Shown here: positions 15,255-61,952 of the stretch, one piece after another
Layout: every line of letters starts with the position of its first letter
Numbering within the stretch: position 1 is the first letter of the stretch
Origin: Roseomonas aerilata DSM 19363
GTDB lineage: Bacteria; Pseudomonadota; Alphaproteobacteria; Acetobacterales; Acetobacteraceae
DNA: 64,000 nucleotides
Reading direction: 5' to 3'
Assembly: GCF_000711725.1 (NCBI RefSeq)
Contig: NZ_JONP01000002.1
Coordinates: 186,001-250,000 of the forward strand
The notes under the pieces: model-generated
What the model saw: the letters and a program-made list of their open reading frames with translations, nothing else
What the model was told of the DNA's origin: nothing
Databases searched by the model: none
Position numbers and translations under genes: made by a program

Positions 15255-15504
15255 CCAGAGAGGGCTCTGCCCTCTCCGGCACCTCACCCGCCAAGGGCCT
15301 GAGGCCCTTGGAACCCCATCTGGCTTTCGCGGGTGCGGTGATCGGAGGCCGGCTCCTCGCCGGTGCTCTTCCTGTGTGTGCAGTCGCCTCGGGTCCACGA
15401 CCCGAGGCGCACCGGTTGCAGAACCGCCCTAAACTTGAAGAAGAAGATGATGGAGGGGGGTCCGGGGAGAGGAAGAATTCTTTCTTCCTCTCCCCGGAGT
15501 CACC
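15255..15504 (+). repeat. Four-hairpin dispersed repeat, copy A (long-spacer class)
   Basis: Four inverted repeats in order. a: GAGAGGGC/GCCCTCTC (15258-15276). b: CCAAGGGCCT/AGGCCCTTGG (15291-15311). c: CGCCTCGGGTC/GACCCGAGGCG (15385-15409). d: a perfect 16-bp stem (15462-15477 with 15482-15497) around a GAATTC-containing loop. A conserved GTCACC ends the element at 15499-15504. The b-to-c spacer is 73 nt and shares sequence with copies C and D. It fills the gap between the 43-residue gene (18 bp before) and the convergent DJ-1 gene (stop 19 bp after). No T-tract follows stem d in the forward direction. Confidence 0.9.
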
Positions 15505-15522
15505 CACGCCACCCGCTCAAAA

Positions 15523-38777: not shown

Positions 38778-39485
38778 ATGTCAGAGGAAAAGCGGGTCGC
38801 GCTGGTCACCGGCGGCTCCAGGGGCATCGGGCGCGGCATCGCCCAGCGGCTGGCCGCCGATGGCTGGCACGTCGTCACCGCCGACACCGAGCCCGAGGGC
38901 CCCGCCGAGGCCGCCCGCCACCTCCGCGCCGACATCTCCGACGAGGCCGCCGTCCGCACCCTCATCGACGGCATCGCGGCCACCGAGGCTCGGCTGGATG
39001 GCCTCGTCTGCAACGCCGGCATCATGGTGCGAAAGCCGCTGCGCGACCTGTCGCTCGCGGACTGGTCCCGCGTGATCGGCACCAACCTCACCAGCACCTA
39101 CCTGCTCGCCCGCGCCGCCGAACCCATGCTCCGTGCCGCCAGGGGCGCTATCGTCACCATCGCCTCCACCCGCGCCCACCAGTCGGAACCGGATACGGAA
39201 AGCTACGCCGCCTCCAAGGGCGGCCTGCTCGCCCTCACCCATGCCCTGGCCATCAGCCTCGGCCCTGAGGTGCGCGCCAACGTCATCTCCCCTGGCTGGA
39301 TCAACGTGCGCGACGAGAAGCTGAGCGAGCGCGACAACGCCCAGCACCCCGCCGGCCGCGTCGGCCGCCCGGCCGACATCGCCGCCCTCGCCGCCTGGCT
39401 CCTCAGCCCCGAGAGCGGCTTCGTCACCGGCGCCGAGTTCGTGTCGGACGGGGGGATGACGCGGAAGATGATCTACGAGGAGTAA
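38778..39485 (+). CDS. Short-chain dehydrogenase/reductase
   Basis: 235 residues from ATG 38778 with 'gaagggg' upstream. Classical SDR: 'VALVTGGSRGIGRGIAQRLA' (TGxxxGxG), 'LDGLVCNAGIM' (NAG), catalytic Ser in 'GAIVTIASTRAH', YxxxK in 'SYAASKGGLLALTHALA', and 'SGFVTGAEFVSDGGMT'. Substrate unknown. Ends 13 bp before repeat copy B. Possibly transcribed on its own, since a hairpin separates it from urtE. Confidence 0.92.
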   Translation: MSEEKRVALVTGGSRGIGRGIAQRLAADGWHVVTADTEPEGPAEAARHLRADISDEAAVRTLIDGIAATEARLDGLVCNAGIMVRKPLRDLSLADWSRVIGTNLTSTYLLARAAEPMLRAARGAIVTIASTRAHQSEPDTESYAASKGGLLALTHALAISLGPEVRANVISPGWINVRDEKLSERDNAQHPAGRVGRPADIAALAAWLLSPESGFVTGAEFVSDGGMTRKMIYEE

Positions 39486-39497
39486 CGCGGGTGGCTC

Positions 39498-41875
<2,378 letters not shown>

Positions 41876-41929
41876 ACGGCTCTACCAGCAGCGAGCTGAG
41901 CCACTGTTTCGGTCCGGGCCGACGGCGCT

Positions 41930-42178
41930 GGTGACGCCGGGGAGAGAAAGAAAGAATTCTTCCTCTCCCCGGACCCCTCACCATCATCTTTTTCTTTGAG
42001 TTAGGGATGCTTTGCGGCCGGTGCGCCTCGGGTCACTGACCCGAGGCGACTGCACGCGCCGGATGGGTGCCCAGAAAGAACCGGCCCCTAATCACCCTAT
42101 CCGCGAAAGCCAGATGGGAATCCAAGGGTCTCAGGCCCTTGGCGGGTGAGGTTCCGGAGAGGGCAGCGCCCTCTCTGG
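41930..42178 (-). repeat. Four-hairpin dispersed repeat, copy C (long-spacer class, reverse orientation)
   Basis: In inverse order on the plus strand. d: 41937-41972, outer 10 bp CCGGGGAGAG/CTCTCCCCGG perfect, with GAATTC inside but extra A-rich bases in the apical part. c: CGCCTCGGGTC/GACCCGAGGCG (42024-42048). b: 42122-42142 with a G-T pair. a: GAGAGGGC/GCCCTCTC (42157-42175), loop AGC instead of TCT. The c-to-b spacer is 73 nt and shares 'ATCTGGCTTTCGCGG' with copy A. A T-rich stretch (41987-41997) follows stem d in the rightward direction. Fills most of the gap between pobA and the convergent SDR. Confidence 0.9.
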
Positions 42179-42218
42179 CGCCGCCAGCCCTCGTAGTGGG
42201 TATCTCCCCCGAACCACC

Positions 42219-54369: not shown

Positions 54370-55181
54370 CAGGGGCGGCACCCCGCCTCGCCCTCCTCAC
54401 CCTGGCCAGCGCCGCGAGCGCCGAGGCCGTGGCGGCGTTCGCCGCCCGCTACCGGGAGAGCCTCGCCCTCGTCGGGCTCTCCAACCCCTATCGCCGGAAT
54501 GCGGGGGGATCGCTCGGCCAGGCCTGGCGGCATCTCCGGCGTTCGGGGCCGGGCCTGCTCGCCTACCTCGCGGTGAATATGTCGCTGCCGCGGATCGCCG
54601 GGCTGCTCTCGCCCGGCCTCGGCCCGCTTGCGCGAAGCCTCGGCGGCCGGGGCGTGCCCGTGGTCACGGTGGAGGACGTGAACGGCCCCGCTTTCGCGGA
54701 GACCCTACGCGCCTCGGGGGCGGAGCTGATCGTCACCTTCCACTTCGACCAGATCCTCTCGGCCGCGACGCTCGGCATTCCCCCGCTTGGCGGCATCAAC
54801 GTCCACCCCTCCCTTCTCCCGCACCACCGGGGGCCCATGCCGACCTTCTGGGCGGGGATGGAGCCGGCGCCCGCCCATGGGGTCACGATCCACCGCCTCG
54901 TGCCGAGGATCGACGCGGGTCCGATCCTCGCCCAGAAGGCGGTGGACCTTCCGCGGGGGGTCACGGTCTCGGCCGCGGCGCGACTCCTCCATCAGGCCGC
55001 AGTGCCGCTCGCGGGCGAGGTCCTGCCCCGCCTCGCAGCCGGCACCGCGGCGGAGTGGCTGGCCGAGGCGCTGCCCTACCGCCCCTTTCCCACGCGCGCG
55101 ACGTTGCGCGAGGCCCGCCGGCGGGGCCTGCGTCTCTTTGACGCCGCGGATTTGCGCGCAGCCCTGCGCGCGCGGCTTTGA
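54366..55181 (+). CDS. Formyltransferase-fold protein (Fmt/GART-like), probable CTG start
   Basis: 271 residues if translation begins at the CTG at 54366, which overlaps the synthase stop codon as CTGA and has GGAG (54354-54357) 8 nt before it. The first GTG (54429) would give 250 residues but would cut off the N-terminal strand 'RLALLTLASAASAEAVAAFA'. The catalytic block is intact: 'GINVHPSLLPHHRGPMPTFW' (Asn, His, SLLPxxRG) and the Asp in 'LVPRIDAGPILAQK'. Related enzymes transfer formyl from 10-formyltetrahydrofolate to an amino group. Directly downstream of the oxoamine synthase, it may formylate the amino ketone or a derived amine. A sugar-amine formyltransferase (as in capsule sugars) is the main alternative. 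Confidence 0.8.
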   Translation: MTGAAPRLALLTLASAASAEAVAAFAARYRESLALVGLSNPYRRNAGGSLGQAWRHLRRSGPGLLAYLAVNMSLPRIAGLLSPGLGPLARSLGGRGVPVVTVEDVNGPAFAETLRASGAELIVTFHFDQILSAATLGIPPLGGINVHPSLLPHHRGPMPTFWAGMEPAPAHGVTIHRLVPRIDAGPILAQKAVDLPRGVTVSAAARLLHQAAVPLAGEVLPRLAAGTAAEWLAEALPYRPFPTRATLREARRRGLRLFDAADLRAALRARL

Positions 55182-55303
55182 TCCCCGGCCAGAGCGCTTC
55201 GAAGGGGCTTCGTTCCGAAACGGCAACACGGCAGCAAGGAAAGCCCCGCTACACCCGGCAACGCAGGATTGTCGCCGCGCTGCGGCCCGAATATGGAGGA
55301 TGG

Positions 55304-56569
55304 GTGCCTCAGCAAATCCAAGATGCCGTGCGGCCGAGGCGATTTCTCTTCCTGCAGGGTCCGATCACCCCCTTCTTCGACGAGGTCGGCGCCGAGCTGA
55401 GGCGGCTCGGCCACGGGGTTCACCGGATCAACTTCTGCCTCGGCGACAAGCTCGCCTGGCGCAGCCCCGGGGCGGAGGACTTCACCGCCCGCCCGGAGAC
55501 CTGGCCCGCCTTCATCGCGGCCTTCCTCGACCGCCACGCCATCACCGACATCGTGCTGCTCGGCGAGCAGCGCTTCTACCACCGGGAGGCGATCGCGGCG
55601 GCGAAGGCGCGCGGCCTCACGGTGGTGGCCACCGACTTCGGCTACCTCCGCCCCGACTGGATCACCTTCGAGCTGGACGGCATGAACCGGGAGAGCCGCT
55701 TCCCGCGCGAGCCCGAGGCCGTCGTCGCCCTGGCCGAGACCCTGCCGCCCCTCGACCTAGCCCAGCGCCACCGGGACAGCTTCCTCAACCAGGCGACCTG
55801 GGACGTGGCCTACCACCTGGCAAACCTTATCCCGGGGCCCTTCCGCCACTACGCCAGCCACCAGATCTACCACCCGGTCCAGGTCTATCTCGGCACCCTG
55901 CTGCGCCTGATCATGCGGCGGCGCGCCAACCGACGGTCGGACGCCATTATCGGCCGGCTCAAGCAGGAAGGACGGCCGCTCTTCCTCATGGCGATGCAGA
56001 TGGAGACCGACTTCTCCGTCCGCGCCTACTCCCGCTACCCCGACCTCGACACGGCGATCGAGGAGGTCATCACCTCCTTCGCTGCCCATGCCCCGCCGGC
56101 CGCGCAGCTTCTGGTGAAGGTCCACCCGCTGGACCCCGCGGTGAAGAACTGGGGCCGCCGGGTAGCCCGGACGGCGCGGCGGGCCGGGGTGGCGGGGCGC
56201 GTCCACTACCTCGGCGGCGGCAACCTGGGCAGCATCACCGAGAGCGTGCAGGGCGTCGTCACCATCAACAGCACCGTCGGCCTGCGCGCCATCGTGGACC
56301 GGCTGCCGACCCTCGCGCTCGGCGACGCGATCTACAAGATCCCGGGCCTGACCCATGGCGGATCCCTGGATAGCTTCTGGACCGAAGGCCATCCGCCGGA
56401 CCCGGTGCTGCGAGAAGCCTTCCTGCGCGGCATCGGCCACTGCCTGCACATCCGCGGCGTCTACTACGCCCGCCCCGGCCTGGATGCGGCGGTCGAGGCA
56501 GCGGCGCACCGCCTGCACCACGGGCTGGTCAACCAACCCGTGCTGGAACCACCGCCGCTCTCATTCTGA
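55304..56569 (+). CDS. KpsS/RkpJ-type capsule polysaccharide protein (predicted beta-Kdo transferase)
   Basis: 421 residues from the GTG at 55304, with GGAGG only 4 nt before it; a TTG at 55178 overlapping the previous stop would give 463 residues, but the added 42 are not family-like. 'RRFLFLQGPITPFFDEVGAELRRLGHGVHRINFCLGDKLAW' (two segments), 'AMQMETDFSVRAYSRYPDLD', 'LLVKVHPLDPAVKNWG' and 'GVVTINSTVGLRAIVDRLP' match KpsS/RkpJ. In group 2 capsules KpsS and KpsC build the beta-Kdo linker on a phospholipid anchor. Its place here suggests the locus serves a capsule whose lipid end is made by the upstream PKS and synthase. No KpsC, KpsM or KpsT gene lies in the window. Confidence 0.88.
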   Translation: MPQQIQDAVRPRRFLFLQGPITPFFDEVGAELRRLGHGVHRINFCLGDKLAWRSPGAEDFTARPETWPAFIAAFLDRHAITDIVLLGEQRFYHREAIAAAKARGLTVVATDFGYLRPDWITFELDGMNRESRFPREPEAVVALAETLPPLDLAQRHRDSFLNQATWDVAYHLANLIPGPFRHYASHQIYHPVQVYLGTLLRLIMRRRANRRSDAIIGRLKQEGRPLFLMAMQMETDFSVRAYSRYPDLDTAIEEVITSFAAHAPPAAQLLVKVHPLDPAVKNWGRRVARTARRAGVAGRVHYLGGGNLGSITESVQGVVTINSTVGLRAIVDRLPTLALGDAIYKIPGLTHGGSLDSFWTEGHPPDPVLREAFLRGIGHCLHIRGVYYARPGLDAAVEAAAHRLHHGLVNQPVLEPPPLSF

Positions 56570-56612
56570 AGCCTGAGTTAGACAGGGCTCTCTTTTTACC
56601 GTGTCGGCGCTT

Positions 56613-56855
56613 GTGGCCCTGGGGAGAGGAAGTAAGGAATTCTTCCTCTCCCCAGACCCCTCACCATCATCTTTTTCTTCGCGTTGAGATGCTTTGCGGT
56701 CGGTGCGCCTCGGGTCACCGACCCGAGGCGACTGCACGCGCAGGAAGGGCGCGCAAAGAACCGGCCCGATCACAGCATCCGCGCCAGCCAGACGGGGATC
56801 CAAGGGCCTCAGGCCCTTGGCGGGTGAGGCCTGGAGAGGGCAGCGCCCTCTCCAG
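56613..56855 (-). repeat. Four-hairpin dispersed repeat, copy D (long-spacer class), overlapping a coding end
   Basis: On the plus strand: d, CTGGGGAGAGGAAG with CTTCCTCTCCCCAG (56619-56655), 14 bp with the outer second pair changed from C-G to T-A relative to A and B on both sides; c, CGCCTCGGGTC/GACCCGAGGCG (56706-56730); b, perfect CCAAGGGCCT/AGGCCCTTGG (56800-56820); a, CTGGAGAGGGC/GCCCTCTCCAG (56831-56855). Spacer between c and b is 69 nt. Hairpins a and b lie within the 3' end of the ATP-grasp gene, whose TGA falls in hairpin b. A T-rich run (56671-56677) follows stem d rightward. Confidence 0.9.
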
Positions 56856-58131
56856 GAGCCGCAAGCGCCGGCAGCCATCCCAGGTTGCGCAGCCTCTCCC
56901 TCTCCCCCGAGAGGAACCGGTCCCCGATATCGCCGCGCCAGCGCAGTTCCGGCGCCACCACGTTGCGCGCCCGGGCCCGTGCGGCTTCCTGGGCTTCCTG
57001 CACAGTGGCCCCCGTGCCCGTCACGATCATCAGGTGGCCTGACCGGCGCCGCCCGAGGAGTTGGCCGCCTTCCTGGCGCATGTCCACGAAGTGGTAGCCC
57101 TCCAGTTCGGCGCCCTCCACCGGGTGGAGAAAGAAGACCGGCGGGTCCTCCTCGGGCGTGGTGGTCGGATGGTGATCGGGGAAGGGCGGCACGGTCAGCA
57201 CGATGGCGACGGAGAAGCCCGGCCGGGTCGCGAAGCGTCGGGGTTTGCGCGGCGCGGCCATGCGGCCCAGCAGGTCGCCCCAGCCCTCGGGTTGGAGGGC
57301 GGCGAGCACCGCGAAGCCGGGATTGCCGAAGCGGCAGGTGAACTCCAGCGGCCAGACGCCCCGCTCGTTCACGATGAGGTTCAGGTTGACGTAGCCGACA
57401 TGCCCTGCGGCGGCGAAGCGCGGCGCCACGCGGTCCAGCGTCGCGGCGAAGAGCGCCTCCGAGTCCTCGTAGGAGGCGAGGGTACCCATCTCGCCCGTCA
57501 TCTCCCCCATCTCACCGGGGAAGAAACGCTTGTGCTCGAAGTCGATGCAGGCCGGGCGCAGGAAGGCGGTGCCGTCGAAATAGGCGCCGACGCCGACCTC
57601 CACGCCCTCGATCCGCTCCATCAGCAGCACCCGCCCCTCGCCCGCGCGGCGGAGCATGAAGGCGACGTCCAGCCCCTCCGGATGGTCACCGACGAAGGTG
57701 TTGCGGCCGACCTCGTCGTGTTTGAGCACGTAGCGGCCGGGATGCTCCCGAAGCCAGTCGAGCGCGGCCGGGGCGTTCTCGAAGGACATGCTCTCCGCGA
57801 TGGCGAGGCCCGCCTCGCGCAGCACCGACTGGCCGAAATCCCGCTCCTGCTCCAGGCGGTCGCCGAACTCGCTGCCGCCGACCACGCGATAACCCTCGGC
57901 GCGCAGCGCGTCCTGTACGGCGCCGCGCCCGATGCGCTCGAAGAAGACGATCCCGTCTCGCCCGACCCAGTCCAGTTCCGCCCGCCAGTCGGGCACGGTG
58001 TCGATCAGGCCGCCGAAGGCGCGGTCCCCCGGAGGATCCTCGGCGTGGACGCGCACCTCGTGCCCCTCGCGCTGCAGGGCGAGATAGACGTCGCCGAGAT
58101 AGGCGCGTGGCCCGATGCCCAGAATCCGCAT
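56809..58131 (-). CDS. PurD-like ATP-grasp protein with a repeat-encoded tail
   Basis: 440 residues. The ATP-grasp core is recognisable: 'RYVLKHDEVGRNTFVGDHPE', 'VLLMERIEGVEVGVGAYFDG', 'AAGHVGYVNLNLIVNERGVWPLEFTCRFGNPG' (metal/ATP Glu and Asn). The C-terminal part resembles the PurD end. But the N-terminus 'MRILGIGPRAYLGDVYLALQ' is not the PurD glycine-rich loop, so a carboxylate-amine ligase other than GAR synthetase is likely. The last residues (about 14-16, Gly/Ala/Pro/Arg-rich, ending PRA) are translated from repeat copy D. The ancestral stop was probably upstream of the element. Leftward, convergent with the KpsS-type gene. Confidence 0.8.
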   Translation of the reverse strand: MRILGIGPRAYLGDVYLALQREGHEVRVHAEDPPGDRAFGGLIDTVPDWRAELDWVGRDGIVFFERIGRGAVQDALRAEGYRVVGGSEFGDRLEQERDFGQSVLREAGLAIAESMSFENAPAALDWLREHPGRYVLKHDEVGRNTFVGDHPEGLDVAFMLRRAGEGRVLLMERIEGVEVGVGAYFDGTAFLRPACIDFEHKRFFPGEMGEMTGEMGTLASYEDSEALFAATLDRVAPRFAAAGHVGYVNLNLIVNERGVWPLEFTCRFGNPGFAVLAALQPEGWGDLLGRMAAPRKPRRFATRPGFSVAIVLTVPPFPDHHPTTTPEEDPPVFFLHPVEGAELEGYHFVDMRQEGGQLLGRRRSGHLMIVTGTGATVQEAQEAARARARNVVAPELRWRGDIGDRFLSGERERLRNLGWLPALAAPGEGAALSRPHPPRA

Positions 58132-61532: not shown

Positions 61533-61741
61533 CGAGAGAGGGCGCTGCCCTCTCCGGATCTCACCCGCCAGGCGCCTGAGGCCGCTGGATCCTCATCTGG
61601 CGGTCGCGGAACCTTCCTTCACGTTCAGTCGCCTCGGGTCGATGACCTGAGGCGCACCATCCGCCGAGCATTCCAAGCAGGCAGAAAAAGATGAGTGGGG
61701 GTCTGGGGGGAGAGAATTCATTCTCTCCCCCCAGCGTCACC
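61533..61741 (+). repeat. Four-hairpin dispersed repeat, copy E (short-spacer class, most diverged)
   Basis: a: GAGAGGGC/GCCCTCTC (61536-61554). b: decayed, 61568-61588, 8 of 10 pairs. c: CGCCTCGGGTC with GACCTGAGGCG (61630-61654), one G-T pair. d: 14 bp CTGGGGGGAGAGAA/TTCTCTCCCCCCAG (61703-61734), GAATTC retained, with compensatory changes relative to A and B. Spacer b-to-c 41 nt, as in copy B. It lies after rlpA but, unlike the others, the next gene is on the same strand (start 61996). Confidence 0.85.
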
Positions 61742-61952
61742 AGCGCTGCCCCGTAACGATGCGGGTCTGCCGGTGCAGACCACCACGGGAGCACCGCGCA
61801 TGACCTTCGAAGCCCGTTCATCCGAGCGCTCGCCTCGCGACAGCAGGCGGCGGATTTCTGCCTCCGGACAGCCGGCATGGTCCTGACCTTCGCGGCGCTG
61901 GTGCTTCTCTCCCCCACCCGCCTTGACCACGCCCTCACGGGTTGACCAGGTT

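Follow-up and report, generated by a model that had tools for sequence, protein, structure and literature searches.

The PurD-like gene and repeat copy D

The window analysed here is a stretch of 64,000 nucleotides from the genome of Roseomonas aerilata DSM 19363 (G000), where it occupies bases 186001-250000 of contig C2. It contains a gene for a PurD-like protein, whose 3' end lies within one copy (copy D) of a palindromic repeat, and a convergent KpsS-like gene, which stops before this copy. Further copies (A, B, C and E) are located elsewhere in the window. The features are as follows:

15258..15522, plus strand: repeat copy A (sequence)
39493..39721, plus strand: repeat copy B; site without repeat in two relatives, G009 and G008 (sequence)
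41923..42188, minus strand: repeat copy C; site without repeat in the same two relatives, G009 and G008 (sequence)
55178..56569, plus strand: KpsS-like gene, convergent neighbour (ORF; NCBIfam KpsS model 9.6e-54, below its cut-off)
56606..56869, minus strand: repeat copy D, 264 bp including both inverted ends (sequence; one of 91 copies)
56606..56617, minus strand: right inverted end GCCACAAGCGCC (sequence; fold)
56619..56655, minus strand: hairpin d, CTGGGGAGAGGAAG...CTTCCTCTCCCCAG (fold and sequence)
56706..56730, minus strand: hairpin c, CGCCTCGGGTC...GACCCGAGGCG (fold and sequence)
56800..56820, minus strand: hairpin b, CCAAGGGCC-TGA-GGCCCTTGG (fold, sequence, two-sided changes at three of nine stem positions)
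56809..58131, minus strand: PurD-like gene of the GARS-fold ATP-grasp type (ORF; Pfam GARS_A 8e-11; GAR synthetases as top fold matches)
56809..56811, minus strand: TGA stop codon of the PurD-like gene, identical with the loop of hairpin b (ORF, RNA fold, sequence)
56812..56868, minus strand: 19 repeat-encoded codons, ALAAPGEGAALSRPHPPRA (sequence; ortholog comparison)
56831..56855, minus strand: hairpin a, CTGGAGAGGGCGCTGCCCTCTCCAG, translated through (fold and sequence)
56858..56869, minus strand: left inverted end GGCGCTTGCGGC, translated (sequence; paired with the right inverted end in the RNA fold)
61536..61746, plus strand: repeat copy E (sequence)

The PurD-like reading frame extends from 58131 to 56809 and encodes 440 amino acids, ending at the TGA at 56811-56809. 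Beside the Pfam GARS_A match, a match to the NCBIfam purD model below its cut-off was obtained. A fold search gave GAR synthetases as the best matches, and the best solved GAR synthetase covers residues 33-408 of the protein. The frame passes through hairpin a of copy D, and its stop is the TGA that makes up the three-nucleotide loop of hairpin b. The reading frame, the RNA fold and the comparison with orthologs thus agree with the original prediction that the stop codon and the C-terminal tail of this gene originate from the repeat. The predicted passage through hairpin a and the stop in the apex of hairpin b were likewise found; the predicted tail length of 14-16 residues was not, since the inverted end GGCGCTTGCGGC (56869..56858) is translated too and the tail therefore comprises 19 residues. 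In the AlphaFold model, residues 425-440 have pLDDT values below 50 (mean of the whole model 88.9), and the tail is probably disordered.

The RNA fold of copy D has an energy of -166.3 kcal/mol (z -8.85), and none of 200 shuffled sequences was as low. In this fold, the inverted ends are paired, hairpins a to d are formed and UGA is the 3-nt loop of hairpin b. A comparison of 59 distinct sequences, which excluded the 30 of 91 copies whose triplet at this offset differs, revealed 15 two-sided changes in stem b at three of nine stem positions (mean of 1000 shuffles 4.6, maximum 10). These counts are inflated by the kinship of the copies, and gene conversion could also give such changes. It seems that in the repeat the structure is kept rather than the peptide.

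The repeat family in the genome and in relatives

At least 91 copies of the repeat, some of them partial, are present in the genome when the long DNA matches and the places with the hairpin b pattern are merged. This is a lower bound which refers to the fetched stretches only; the whole contig C2, for instance, has 15 copies, of which 12 are listed. The DNA search alone gave at least 40 long matches, and the hairpin b pattern (25 bases, up to three mismatches) occurred at 85 places (reversed-pattern control: 0). In accordance with the original prediction, the TGA of the apex is also present in the b hairpins of other copies, namely at 81 of the 85 places, a share that is biased upward because TGA is part of the search pattern. 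In 90 of the 91 copies, the stretch bounded by hairpins a and d has 186-265 bp, and the remaining copy is cut by a contig end. The copies are unevenly distributed, with 24 on C7 (257 kb) and 17 on C13 (160 kb), compared to two on C3 (304 kb) and three on C1 (599 kb). The clustering on C7 and C13 possibly reflects a second replicon or an island. When the PurD-like protein was used as query, the same genome gave two additional matches restricted to the last 25 and 39 residues, which are other copies of the repeat.

Among the genomes searched, the repeat gave at least 12 matches in each of G000, G001, G005, G006, G010, G012 and G014, one long match in G007 and one or two short matches each in G002, G004 and G011. 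At a threshold of 1e-5, no match was obtained in G003, G008, G009 and G013. Among plasmid sequences, a single partial match was obtained, in Roseomonas mucosa, and a search of the 64 kb window with Rfam at gathering score gave no match. The part comprising hairpins a and b was found alone in three other genera (G024, G027, G028). This pair or a look-alike also occurs 3' of the trmB stop in G003 (L217) and 3' of the amidohydrolase stop in G012 (L229). The full repeat may be built from modules such as the hairpin a-b pair. A small GTGAACGCGCAGCGTTCATCCCGCC-like palindrome with a stop codon of its own was seen between hairpins a and b at the end of the RND gene of Roseomonas sp. KE2513 (L348) and on C13 near 60160.

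Recent jumps of the repeat were considered and rejected for contig C2, as KE2513 has counterparts of all nine copies that lie in aligned blocks, a partial one in one case. The tenth copy of this contig, at 278923, is located where the synteny with KE2513 ends. Literature searches on palindromic, inverted or intergenic repeats of Roseomonas and Acetobacteraceae gave no description of this family, which apparently has not been described so far.

C-termini of PurD-like orthologs

The nearest relative with respect to the PurD-like gene is G010, i.e. Roseomonas sp. KE2513. Its gene carries the repeat at the same place, with the same frame and the same stop, and its tail ALAAPGEGAALSGPHPPRT differs from ALAAPGEGAALSRPHPPRA at two positions, both tails comprising 19 residues. 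Six other orthologs of the genus (L003-L008) lack the tail and end 0-4 residues past the GWLP column. A named genome collection, in which five of these six recur, yielded 44 PurD-like loci; all were translated except L157, which runs off its contig, giving 43 proteins. With KE2513 included, 20 loci have an identity of at least 67% and a C-terminus that can be read; the truncated L179 gives no C-terminus. Apart from KE2513, 16 of these 19 orthologs end 0-4 residues past GWLP, and the remaining three carry unrelated extensions of 8, 11 and 19 residues. At 37-50% identity, 22 further loci have unrelated tails of 0-21 residues, with the maximum of 21 in L169; the C-terminus of PurD-like proteins is therefore free to vary. 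Only KE2513, the closest relative, has the 19-residue tail in common with the window. Hence, the comparison that had been proposed as a check came out in favour of the prediction, as orthologs without the repeat do not share the residues of the tail.

Position of the repeat relative to genes

Gene directions were taken from the best-scoring codon frame on each flank, including doubtful flanks. On this basis, the flanking gene is directed towards the repeat on the left in 81 of 91 copies and on the right in 76, and the junctions are convergent in 68 of the 91 copies, tandem in 21 and divergent in two. Where both flanks were called with confidence, 53 of 62 junctions are convergent, eight tandem and one divergent. 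For comparison, a crude gene caller on contig C2 found 36 of 256 junctions to be convergent, with 9 of 15 repeat copies at convergent junctions. The codon score and the crude caller disagree on some copies; at copy B, the codon score alone calls a right-hand gene on the minus strand.

Most left genes end before the repeat: the stop lies 4-48 bases before hairpin a in 63 of 71 confidently called cases, in a scan that is blind to stops more than 60 bases upstream of hairpin a. Five left genes were called at the TGA of hairpin b, and four of them are credible on reading, namely those for the PurD-like protein, TrmB, an amidohydrolase and an RND transporter. A search for other genes ending in the same hairpin, as proposed with the prediction, was thus successful in three further cases, all of them on C13. 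The four repeat-encoded tails have GEGAALSGPHPPRA or similar forms in common. It had further been supposed that an insertion near a stop codon could routinely create such tails. This view did not hold, as only four of 81 inward left genes in this genome and one of 81 in three relatives use this stop. In each of the relatives, 30 loci were read (out of 56, 40 and 188 places), with 27 left genes directed towards the repeat; the stop in hairpin b is used by 1/27, 0/27 and 0/27 of them. The single case (L277) is a call, and six further inward genes were called with stops at offsets of 84 to 1107. Judging from these reading frames, the creation of tails by the repeat is real but uncommon.

Several other candidates for stops inside the repeat were rejected. 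C21_39396 has an open frame of only 35 amino acids, C13_87733 and C13_70874 have a non-coding score, the anchors of C12_95356 and C2_247536 are misplaced, so that the genes end before the repeat, C5_246111 has an offset of 1 from an anchor that also looks misplaced, and the frame of C13_60160 is ambiguous. For genes entering from the right, none was verified to stop inside the repeat; C19_67268, C13_46422 and C13_4, which lies at a contig edge, are calls only. At the right end, 21-24 bases past hairpin d, a stop triplet occupies a fixed place in 26 of 91 copies (25 TGA, one TAA) and is the stop of the right-hand gene in 14 of these 26 copies, not in the other 12. A role of this right-tip TGA as a supplier of stops is not supported: at C2:278923, one of the 14, KE2513 has the same stop without a full copy, and the stop there is therefore the gene's own.

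TGA triplets occur in different frames in the inverted ends and in hairpin b. A function of the repeat as a three-frame stop cassette that caps genes was nevertheless rejected, because closure is no commoner than in dinucleotide shuffles. In 86 copies (five of the 91, with doubtful anchors or frames, were left out), closure of all three frames within 70 nt was found in 0/86 from the left (3.2% of shuffles) and in 0/86 from the right (1.9%). Within 110 nt, the shares were 8.1% vs 9.4% in shuffles from the left and 9.3% vs 6.4% from the right. On average, the next stop is somewhat nearer than in the shuffles (113 vs 129 from the left, 123 vs 146 from the right).

Filled and empty sites

The clearest comparison of sites with and without the repeat is provided by trmB. 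In all 13 other genomes of the genus, TrmB ends three residues past the motif WVW, WIW or, in G013, WSF, whereas in G000 and G010 the protein extends 20 residues past this motif. Between trmB and rimP, the spacing is short in G009, G008, G004, G001 and G012, and the repeat occupies this place in G000 and G010; the gene order is the same with and without it. On the far side of the repeat, homology restarts at AATGCTTGTA, in G004 directly after the T of the TAA stop; this junction was assigned by eye from a match of 10 bases. It therefore appears that the trmB stop codon was the point of insertion.

Around copies B and C, at 39481-39759 and 41900-42217 of the window, the flanks are collinear with those of G009 and G008, which lack the repeat alone; the empty sites have 10-71 bases between the matched flanks. 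Read by eye, copy B begins directly after the stop of the left gene. At site C, G008 (L241) has a short hairpin and an A-run which resemble the hairpin d end of the repeat. At trmB, B and C, the junction sequences have diverged too far for a target-site duplication to be recognized by eye.

The tails of the amidohydrolase and of the RND transporter are less telling because the C-termini of the relatives vary anyway; 13 other RND loci, for example, end in varied tails. The end of the RND protein is repeat-encoded in both G000 and KE2513, and that of KE2513 ends earlier, at a TGA in the small extra palindrome between hairpins a and b.

Origin of copy D and fate of the tail

These observations are very probably best explained by a non-coding repeat that was joined to the end of the PurD-like gene and supplies both its tail and its stop codon, the tail being tolerated rather than selected. 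The repeat would have joined the gene exactly where the orthologs end, i.e. after GWLP, whereby the old stop was lost from the frame. Translation, which presumably takes place in the cell as the reading frame predicts, would run on through the inverted end and hairpin a to the first in-frame stop of the repeat, the TGA of hairpin b. The outcome would be a probably disordered tail of 19 residues.

Copy D itself may have arisen by insertion, as the sites at trmB, B and C suggest. It is less probable, although a serious possibility, that the repeat was already in place and that the PurD-like gene became fused to it, losing its native stop, through a rearrangement or deletion. No empty site for D was found among the relatives. 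The PurD-like gene lies next to the KpsS-like gene in G000 and G010, and in G009 the two are found on separate contigs (C67, C109); with respect to this synteny breakpoint, D may therefore be the product of an insertion or of a rearrangement. The sequence past the KpsS-like stop is not common to G009, and the copy at C2:278923 likewise sits at an end of synteny with KE2513, which both would fit such a fusion. However, trmB has the appearance of a clean insertion in an unchanged gene order, and at sites B and C the flanks are in order with the repeat alone being extra. An artefact, i.e. a sequencing error or a wrong frame with the true stop elsewhere, would have to be thought of in a draft genome of 151 contigs, but KE2513 has the same frame and stop in a separate assembly and three further genes end likewise, so that this is hardly conceivable.

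Once joined to the gene, the tail looks neutral in the comparison of codons. Between G000 and G010, the tails of three genes differ by 10 amino-acid and three silent codon changes in 58 codons, compared to 30 amino-acid and 83 silent differences in 600 codons of the cores of the same genes (Fisher p 0.00056). The excess of amino-acid over silent changes in the tails speaks against a selected C-terminal extension that was recruited from the repeat as an interaction motif or as a localisation or degradation tag, and so do the premature end of the RND tail of KE2513 at another TGA and the low model confidence, which makes the tail probably disordered. Such a role is very improbable, even though a GEGAALSGPHPPRA-like peptide ends four unrelated proteins and the frame is kept in KE2513 for three of the four. 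Somewhat less remote, but still unlikely, is a role of the stop codon in the loop: the terminating ribosome would melt hairpins a and b and alter the stability of the mRNA 3' end or termination. The TGA does form the loop of hairpin b, the two-sided changes in stem b exceed the shuffle mean (15 vs 4.6), and ribosomes of E. coli stall at REPs that lie within 15 nt of a stop, according to an earlier study cited in PMC12306157. On the other hand, only four of 81 facing genes stop at this place, and hairpin b and its TGA are kept in most copies and hence not for this arrangement. A broader idea is that an undescribed Roseomonas repeat prefers insertion at or beside stop codons between convergent genes, that common GEGAALSGPHPPRA-like C-terminal peptides on unrelated proteins are a by-product, and that ribosomes stopping in the loop of hairpin b open both hairpins and thereby set the fate of the mRNA 3' end; taken as a whole, we consider it improbable.

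With the tolerated tail as the preferred reading, the repeat provides a checkable case of a mobile palindrome that rewrites protein C-termini, with filled and empty sites and a displaced old stop. A similar peptide is carried by four unrelated proteins, and for annotators this is a warning that C-terminal residues in common here represent translation of the repeat and not homology. Those who study repeats at 3' ends may also be interested in the repeat family itself and in how strongly it favours convergent gene ends.

Comparison with known repeat systems

The repeat resembles the GTAG/CGTC-tagged REPs, which are described in PMC3733652 as high-copy palindromes near the 3' ends of genes that favour convergent and unidirectional junctions and whose ends often give flanking genes a stop codon. 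It is likewise a high-copy palindrome beside gene 3' ends with a preference for convergent junctions, and this REP-like property concerns the position only. The single hairpins have 21-37 bp (20-40 bp and a GTAG or CGTC tag in REPs), and of 87 copies, 52 have AGTC and 22 have CGTC as the four bases beside hairpin c. In contrast to the 20-40 bp of a REP, as given in that paper, the whole unit from hairpin a to hairpin d comprises about 190-265 bp, and unlike in the REPs described there the stop is provided by the TGA of a hairpin loop. A RAYT-type transposase (Y1_Tnp, PF01797) was found in none of 15 genomes of the genus, with the control being positive in 5 of 14; the repeat is thus without the Y1 transposase that characterizes RAYT-borne REPs and REPINs.

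In its short and non-coding nature and in its terminal inverted repeats (264 bp at D with the ends GGCGCTTGCGGC and GCCACAAGCGCC), the repeat corresponds to a MITE, although these ends are degenerate among the copies. The presence of the repeat at sites that are empty in relatives (trmB-rimP, B and C) corresponds to this class as well. RPE, ERIC, NEMIS, YPAL and other bacterial MITEs are fused in frame to genes, according to PMC2229807, and the Roseomonas repeat is likewise a small palindrome translated within a host protein. RPEs are in-frame inserts within genes in that account, whereas the repeat described here ends the protein.

Further close descriptions, albeit from a different host, are those of QMITE1 and QMITE2 of Coxiella burnetii in PMC5896051. 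Both elements lie where functional genes end; QMITE1 overlaps these genes by 2-50 bp, and QMITE2 has about 190 bp and 7-9 bp direct repeats. In one strain, QMITE2 presumably encodes the 33 C-terminal residues of EnhC. Like these elements, to which it is likened by description, the Roseomonas repeat is situated at gene 3' ends and supplies C-terminal residues. Direct repeats like those of QMITE2 were not resolved at its junctions, which are too diverged by eye. The mechanism as such is ordinary, since stop codons and C-termini derived from REPs and MITEs are already reported in PMC3733652 and PMC5896051.
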